From the IMG/VR virus record IMGVR_UViG_3300035389_000041, positions 1 through 22,139 of that record: DNA of 22,139 nt. One strand, 5' to 3'. The translations under genes and the position numbers were made by a program. Below the pieces are notes generated by a model. That model was not told the DNA's origin, ran no database searches, and saw nothing but the letters and a program-made list of their open reading frames with translations. Origin of the DNA: a virus. Shown here one piece after another: positions 2,650 to 4,364 of the stretch; position 1 is the first letter of the stretch; every line of letters starts with the position of its first letter.

Positions 2650-3345
2650 TTACCAAATCCAACCAATGCTTGCACTTGCTGTATAAGATGTGATATCGGC
2701 CATTTTAAGAGGGCTTGTAAAAGTTGTTATTGGGGCAGATAATCCACAACTAATAATACCACCTCTACCAAACGTATATCCAAGGTTTAATCCAACACCA
2801 AAGCCATCTTCTAAATTATATGTACTTCCAATAGTTGTAAAGAAATGGGTTGCATATAGCTCGTTATTTAGCTCTGTAATCTGTCCATCTTTCTTGGAAA
2901 CAGATTTTTCTAATTTAACATTCTTTTTTGTTAAATCATTAATAGCTGATTCCTTAATTTTTGAGTCTTCAGATAAAATTTTTATTTGATCTGAATTTTC
3001 ATTAACTTTTGAAACTGCTGCTATTAAATCTTCTTTTGCTTCAATAGTAGTTGATTTAGCATTATCTAATTTAATTAGTGCTGAATCAATTAAATCATTC
3101 ATTTCATTTTCTGAAATTTCGGAGTTCGTTTTCTGATTCTTCGATAGATTCGATTGTTTTATTGAGATTTGAGATTGAGGTGTTGAGTAAGTCTCCAACT
3201 TCGTTATTTCTTTTTCCGAGTTGTTCAAAACTTTTTTCTGAAATGGATTTAAAATTTTGCTTGGATTTACCTCGTGAAAAGGCATAGAGAATAATTGAGA
3301 TGCTACTAATGATAATACTAATAATAGAGAGATAGTTTTTTTCAT
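2650..3345 (-). CDS. Secreted coiled-coil protein with outer-membrane-like beta C-terminus
   Basis: This 231-residue protein starts with ATG 7 bp after AAAGGAGG. Residues 1-20 form a clear signal peptide (MKKTISLLLVLSLVASQLFS) without a lipobox cysteine. Residues about 80-160 are a coiled coil rich in Lys, Glu, Asn and Leu. The last ~68 residues alternate as amphipathic strands (HFFTTIGSTYNL, GFGVGLNLGYTF and others) and end in GWIW, an aromatic end typical of outer-membrane barrels. Signal, stalk and four-strand anchor is also the layout of small trimeric autotransporters. The ATG overlaps the TAA of the membrane protein by one base (TAATG), so translation is coupled. In the part 3104-3280 the codon third positions are unusually G/C in this frame, while another frame looks more natural there (separate entry). 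Function unknown. Confidence 0.75.
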   Translation of the reverse strand: MKKTISLLLVLSLVASQLFSMPFHEVNPSKILNPFQKKVLNNSEKEITKLETYSTPQSQISIKQSNLSKNQKTNSEISENEMNDLIDSALIKLDNAKSTTIEAKEDLIAAVSKVNENSDQIKILSEDSKIKESAINDLTKKNVKLEKSVSKKDGQITELNNELYATHFFTTIGSTYNLEDGFGVGLNLGYTFGRGGIISCGLSAPITTFTSPLKMADITSYTASASIGWIW

Positions 3346-3394
3346 TATAGGTCCTCCTTTTTGTTAAATGATTTGTAAAATTGAAAGGAATCAA
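3104..3394 (-). CDS. Overlapping-frame membrane/coiled-coil ORF, possible spanin-like partner or sign of shifted frame
   Basis: A 96-codon frame overlaps the 5' third of the 2650-3345 gene. It encodes a hydrophobic segment (YLSIISIIISSISIILYAF) followed by a basic residue cluster and a regular polar helix (SEKSFEQLGKRNNEVGDLL and onward), then TGA. Its codons end mostly in A/T as in neighbouring genes, whereas the competing frame does not in the same stretch. The weak point is the start: only a TTG at 3394 without a ribosome site is available, and no ATG/GTG/TTG follows the AAAGGAGG. It could be an embedded gene as in phage Rz/Rz1 pairs, the product of frameshifting near the seven-A run at 3336-3342, or the trace of two compensating indels in the longer gene. 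Confidence 0.35.
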   Translation of the reverse strand: MIPFNFTNHLTKRRTYNEKNYLSIISIIISSISIILYAFSRGKSKQNFKSISEKSFEQLGKRNNEVGDLLNTSISNLNKTIESIEESENELRNFRK

Positions 3395-4364
3395 CGATAG
3401 CTTTTGCGCGCCTTAATGGCTCTTCACTAACGTTCCCCCTTATAGAAATATCCACATTAGGATTTGGAATAGTATTTTCTGGATTAGGCGCATTTTTGAC
3501 TTTGCACTGAAAATTGAATCTTGAATTCCAAGTATCTGATTCAAAATAATAGCCACTATCAGTAATATAATTTGCAATAACTGTAGTTGTGGCTTCTTTA
3601 TTTTCAATTGATTTTTCCCAATCACCCCATTTTTGAAACAATAAATACTGTAGCATTGCAGGTTGTTTAACTAATTCAATTAAGTAGTAATGATTAAAAA
3701 CTATATAACCAATAGCAATAAGAATTAGAGTTGCAATACCAGTAATCACTTTTAGAAGTAAAATATTAGCAACTAGAAAAAGAGTTATTGTACCCATTAA
3801 TGCAAGAATGATTGAAATAAATAGATAATAGTATTTATTAATTTTATATTGCTCATATTTCTTACAATATATAAAATTCTTTATAATACCAAAATAAAGT
3901 ACCGAACTAAGAATAATATAATTATAATAGATTAATACTTCCAAATTACTTTTCATTAGAAATAGAATAATATTTGAAAATAAAAGAACAGTGATTAAAG
4001 ATAAGAAATTAATAATAATTTTATTTTTATAAATTTCTCGTATTTTTGTTAAATTCATTTTTCCTCCCAAAAAAAAATCATCTTCTTTTTTTACCAATTC
4101 TCTTAGTATTGTTTTGATTCCATAAGTAGAATCCCATCCATGAGTTGCTACAGTGGAAATTAGTGTTCCATTGAAAAGAGAATATTGAGCGAGAATTGTT
4201 GTTAGATTTTTGCCTAAAGCAAAACCAATTGAACCACAAATCAACCATGATAAAAACATAATCAAAATTGGAATTAATTTATTGTGAATTTTAGTTTTTT
4301 TCTTTATCCAAAAACCAAATATATTTAATGGAATTGCTAAAATAAACAAGCTTGAAATAATAAT
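3345..4364 (-). CDS. Polytopic membrane protein with probable ATT start, function unknown
   Basis: About 339 residues with roughly six hydrophobic segments, including LFILAIPLNIFGFW near the N-terminus and IPILIMFLSWLICGSIGFAL, and a paired block near the middle-to-end. A soluble tail of about 115 residues ends at the TAA. The start is unusual. An ideal AGGAGG (4371-4376) is followed after 6 bp by ATT at 4362-4364, in frame, with no ATG, GTG or TTG at a usable distance. The nearest upstream TTG (4443-4445) is part of the -35 box and so would not be transcribed. ATT is a rare but real start codon (infC in E. coli). The stop overlaps the start of 2650-3345. I recognise no family; candidates are superinfection exclusion or a lysis-related role, by position only. 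Confidence 0.6.
   Translation of the reverse strand: MIISSLFILAIPLNIFGFWIKKKTKIHNKLIPILIMFLSWLICGSIGFALGKNLTTILAQYSLFNGTLISTVATHGWDSTYGIKTILRELVKKEDDFFLGGKMNLTKIREIYKNKIIINFLSLITVLLFSNIILFLMKSNLEVLIYYNYIILSSVLYFGIIKNFIYCKKYEQYKINKYYYLFISIILALMGTITLFLVANILLLKVITGIATLILIAIGYIVFNHYYLIELVKQPAMLQYLLFQKWGDWEKSIENKEATTTVIANYITDSGYYFESDTWNSRFNFQCKVKNAPNPENTIPNPNVDISIRGNVSEEPLRRAKAIVDSFQFYKSFNKKEDL

Follow-up and report, generated by a model that had tools for sequence, protein, structure and literature searches.

Conserved out-of-phase coding directly downstream of a phage holin-like gene and a candidate spanin pair with a possibly beta-anchored outer partner

The 22,139-base window, an IMG/VR record, comes from a tailed phage whose head-tail genes lie on the minus strand, with the terminase at the high end. 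The terminase, tape measure, ClpP-like protease and integrase showed low-identity matches to phages of many phyla. The operon leads through a gene for a 123-aa protein into a holin-like gene and, directly 3' of it, two overlapping open frames (Table 1). The main frame encodes a secreted protein, and the Shine-Dalgarno sequence, A7 run and signal peptide that an earlier note on this DNA had described for it were all found. The alternative frame is open from 23 codons 5' of the main ATG to a TGA at 3106-3104. The two overlap out of phase by 240 nt, the main frame lying in +1 of the alternative frame (the alternative in -1 of the main). The holin stop codon TAA (3347-3345) overlaps the main-frame ATG (TAATG), so that the pair sits in the late operon and is not the prophage cargo gene that it had been taken for. 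Gene callers would report the main frame alone and overlook the alternative protein. A small plus-strand gene at 2203-2550, convergent with the pair, weakly matches ribbon-helix-helix proteins of the NikA type.

Table 1. Features around the overlapping gene pair (positions in the window; L002, related contig described in the text)
Feature	Position	Strand	Basis or remark
Gene for 123-aa protein	4939-4568	-	Low end of head-tail operon, before holin-like gene
Gene for holin-like membrane protein, ~340 aa, five hydrophobic segments	3345..4364	-	Pfam, PHROG, L002 homologue, TM segments
Shine-Dalgarno AGGAGG	3358-3353	-	7 nt upstream of main-frame ATG
Main frame, 231 aa, proposed o-spanin-like outer-membrane partner	3345..2650	-	Homologue L002:11077-11766
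Alternative frame, proposed i-spanin-like inner-membrane partner	3394..3104	-	Homologue L002:11022-11354
A7 run right after ATG, candidate slippage site	3342-3336	-	A7 present in L002 too
Dual-coding stretch common to both frames	3104..3343	-	Synonymous-shuffle tests and GC3 shift

A Pfam search using the upstream membrane protein revealed similarity with PF16079 (Phage_holin_5_2; E 2.5e-5, 24.9 bits), and a PHROG search with the holin family 1129 (E 2.6e-4); the Phage_holin_5_2 scores of 24.9 and 27.3 bits are both under the Pfam gathering cutoff of 29.2. No ATG, GTG or TTG was found at the proper start of this gene. In the window, an AGGAGG (4376-4371) precedes an ATT codon (4364-4362) with a spacing of 6 nt, and in the related contig described below the holin frame is closed shortly before its start by an in-frame TAG, and an AAGGGGG precedes ATT codons (L002:10022-10039). 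The gene likely starts at an ATT codon, which possibly keeps its expression low. The protein is unusually long: its holin-like N-terminus is followed by three additional TM segments and then by a soluble part at the C-terminus; this last part is conserved in the relative (e.g., GYYF.S..W.S.FNFQ.KV) and contains no known domain. No endolysin was recognised among the window proteins scanned or, in either contig, between the tail and holin genes.

Searching with the holin-like protein as the query identified one relative, contig IMGVR_UViG_3300009345_000018 (L002), whose holin homologue is 43% identical and whose terminase is 60% identical to that of the window. In L002 the holin homologue is followed by the main frame, the alternative frame and then an integrase gene. 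The main-frame proteins of the two phages are 33% identical and the alternative-frame proteins 34% identical, with the same relative register. This divergence is sufficient for a meaningful test of dual coding, in which only two sequences are compared. Among the matches listed, searches of IMG/VR, genome contigs, named phages, plasmids and 395 genomes of the Hymenobacter phylum returned L002 only; the absence of further homologues is weak evidence, since pattern-based scans reach near relatives only. A match in L009 was rejected as chance similarity in GC-rich sequence.

Dual coding was assessed by resampling, in which each main-frame protein was held fixed and synonymous codons were redrawn from the usage of each phage. 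After the ATG, the alternative frame has 79 stop-free codons in the window and 91 in L002, compared with resampled means of 18 and 23. None of 10,000 whole-gene synonymous shuffles of the window gave a frame as long (P ~1e-4 or less), and the corresponding value for L002 was P ~0.001 (0.0009); a stricter shuffle that permuted codons within the overlap only gave P 0.003 and 0.027, respectively. The alternative proteins of the two phages align with a local score of 126, whereas resampled pairs scored 41.7 +/- 11.1 with a maximum of 98 in 5000 (homology P < 2e-4), and the main-frame proteins encoded by the same overlap DNA scored only 66. When the alternative proteins were held fixed instead, the persistence of an open main frame had a P of 2e-4 or less in either phage, and the similarity of the main-frame proteins within the overlap was not beyond expectation (P 0.08). 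The third frame contains 9 stops across the overlap in the window and 10 in L002.

Base composition agrees with this picture. The main-frame GC3 is 0.317 (window) and 0.312 (L002) in the overlap and 0.147 and 0.131 downstream of it, a shift in both phages that is a mark of dual coding. The third positions of the alternative frame had been thought to fit the AT-rich genome better than those of the main frame. Within the window overlap, however, GC3 is 0.317 for the main and 0.291 for the alternative frame, and the codon-usage scores are -0.011 and -0.030 (0.327 downstream), so that both frames are compromised; near-zero scores of both are as expected for dual coding. On the shuffle, alignment-score and GC3 tests together, both frames are real and maintained, and the alternative frame is the more constrained. 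Aligning the homologues of both frames, a check proposed in the earlier note, thus also settles its suggestion of two compensating indels. Poor main-frame codon usage across the segment would fit such indels or a chance open frame, but in L002 both frames are open and homologous to those of the window, the alternative one being better conserved, and this conservation and the shuffle tests exclude both explanations, to which we assign a negligible probability.

Close to the N-terminus of the alternative protein lies one hydrophobic segment of 19 residues, followed by a polar helix, and AlphaFold modelled the protein as a single continuous helix (mean pLDDT 80). Its predicted sequence includes SFEQLGK and NNEVGDLLNTSISNLNK. 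A TM helix with a polar helix had been noticed at 3280-3104; these elements are indeed present, but the overlap that contains them runs from the main start codon to 3104. We propose that the protein is i-spanin-like, with an N-terminal TM segment and a periplasmic helix; this predicted type II topology is not certain, since basic residues flank the TM segment on both sides. The alternative protein of the window has no cysteine for an intermolecular disulfide.

In the model of the main protein (mean pLDDT 44), a signal peptide is followed by helices as far as about residue 143 and then by five strands at the C-terminus. The best Foldseek hit (E 0.9) was not significant, and neither were several outer-membrane barrels (such as OMPLA, VhGalP and LptD) among the best 50. 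PDB profile searches gave nothing useful, and Pfam gave no match of the main protein to a YadA-type anchor. In the window, the main protein lacks a lipobox, as no cysteine lies close to its N-terminus. Both main proteins carry a C-terminal aromatic pair (GWIW in the window, GWEF in L002). A strand-rich C-terminal region of about 70 residues that ends in W/F, together with the missing lipobox, suggests that the protein is beta-anchored in a presumed outer membrane, as read from a low-confidence model. In the L002 protein a cysteine ends the signal peptide (LPVYC-SGS), a doubtful lipobox with a weak Pfam LPAM_1 match (E 1.7). The type of anchor may differ between the two main proteins.

How the alternative frame starts is a separate question from its function. 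No potential start codon in it (ATG, GTG or TTG) is accompanied by a ribosome site. A TTG in this frame is found 49 nt before the main ATG in the window and 55 nt before it in L002, at different codons and with no Shine-Dalgarno sequence. The product would be 96 aa long from the TTG at 3394, or 80 aa (MKKNYLSII...) if ribosomes slipped by -1 past the ATG at 3345. In the part that precedes the ATG, the alternative frames of the two phages score 11 against 14 expected from the holin (P 0.78), and they are alike beyond expectation only downstream of it. Because the similarity begins downstream, we favour initiation at the main ATG and then slippage by -1, ribosomal or transcriptional, within the A7 run (ATG AAA AAA A), so that both proteins would share one start site (MKKN...); the chances that this occurs are about even. 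The A7 run follows the ATG in both phages and the only good ribosome site lies there, but an ATG with an A7 run is common in AT-rich signal-peptide genes, and neither a stimulatory RNA fold (z ~0) nor a conserved RNA structure was seen after the run. The A_AA.A motif is a known but weak -1 site that alone hardly shifts in E. coli (PMC4066793). Ribosomes finishing the holin gene could conceivably reinitiate at the upstream TTG, and we consider this start a reasonable but somewhat doubtful candidate. Slippage is no rival to a spanin function and is compatible with it.

Considering the order, register and predicted architecture of these genes, we propose that the pair works as a divergent spanin of the two-component type, with an OMP-like protein in place of a lipoprotein as outer partner, a proposal that we hold to be as probable as its negation. 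The phage host would be a two-membrane (Gram-negative-type) bacterium, and the module would consist of the holin-like gene followed by the overlapping pair. The alternative frame would supply a short inner-membrane protein with an N-terminal anchor and a periplasmic helix, and the main frame a secreted protein that has a stalk of helices and, at its C-terminus, a beta region anchored in the outer membrane. Once the holin had opened the inner membrane and the wall was cut, the periplasmic helices of the two proteins would pair and join the inner and outer membranes, as with Rz/Rz1-type spanins. The fuller version, with a beta-anchored (possibly trimeric) outer component, a ribosome site and start codon shared by both proteins and an inner component that arises when -1 slippage occurs at the A7 run, is in our judgement unlikely as a whole.

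Spanin gene pairs are embedded, overlapped or separated (Kongari 2018, PMC6139136). Here the genes overlap, the outer candidate is in +1 and a holin-like gene adjoins. The Rz/Rz1-like pair envisaged in the earlier note is supported by the two-frame homology in L002, the post-holin position, the architecture and the register, but not by lipobox or cysteines. By our estimate, the combined periplasmic length of the pair is ~260 residues, which lies within the 62-300 residues of spanin pairs (PMC6139136) and counts for the spanin reading. Two-component spanins usually have a lipoprotein anchor and cysteine bridges (PMC6139136), and because the window pair has neither a lipobox in the main protein nor a cysteine in the alternative one, and because we infer its function, topology and anchoring, along with the interaction and the host envelope, we do not file it as one.

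Two other functions have to be weighed against the spanin proposal. The alternative protein could be a small holin regulator (an antiholin or accessory holin) with its helix in the cytoplasm, the main protein having a separate outer-membrane or secreted function. Its gene directly adjoins the holin-like gene, and the basic residues after its single TM segment (RGKSK, RKQK) could favour a helix that stays inside; antiholins, though, normally have the holin itself as their partner, and a TM helix overlapping a signal peptide in the +1 register is the classic layout of spanins. We therefore consider a holin regulator improbable. More doubtful still is that the main protein acts at the surface or outer membrane in lysogenic conversion or exclusion, with the alternative protein as its membrane partner. 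Such a role would suit a signal peptide, a beta C-terminus and a place at the end of the late operon beside the non-structural region, but the TAATG overlap with the holin gene in the late operon indicates expression at lysis time.

A divergent spanin of the proposed kind would fit into a known gap. An OMP has been called conceivable as an o-spanin, with no documented case, in a survey whose searches depended on either a lipobox or an inner partner already annotated, and in which ~13% of the phages of Gram-negative hosts had no recognisable spanin (Kongari 2018, PMC6139136). If the pair is a spanin, it would be the case of an OMP-type o-spanin and a concrete, testable candidate. It also suggests a search rule, namely late genes after a holin that encode a signal peptide and a strand-rich ending and hide a TM-helix product in their -1 frame.

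The module resembles known systems in part. The N-terminal segment of the holin-like protein matches Phage_holin_5_2/Hol44 in PF16079 and PHROG 1129, but the protein scores below the Pfam cutoff and adds three TM segments and a soluble C-terminus. The main protein resembles the anchor domains of YadA-type trimeric autotransporters in its predicted coiled-coil-like stalk, followed by roughly four strands in each chain and an aromatic last residue; such strands could form a barrel as a trimer. Rz/Rz1 of lambda and LysB/LysC of P2 likewise combine an inner-membrane TM-helix protein with an exported partner, encoded by overlapping genes in the +1 register after the holin. The window pair differs from them in that its outer candidate has a C-terminal strand-rich region and no lipobox and its alternative protein no cysteine, and no sequence relation to them was found. 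The nesting differs as well: lambda Rz1 lies inside Rz, whereas the main frame of the window begins where the inner partner does (with slippage) or close by, and extends well past its end.
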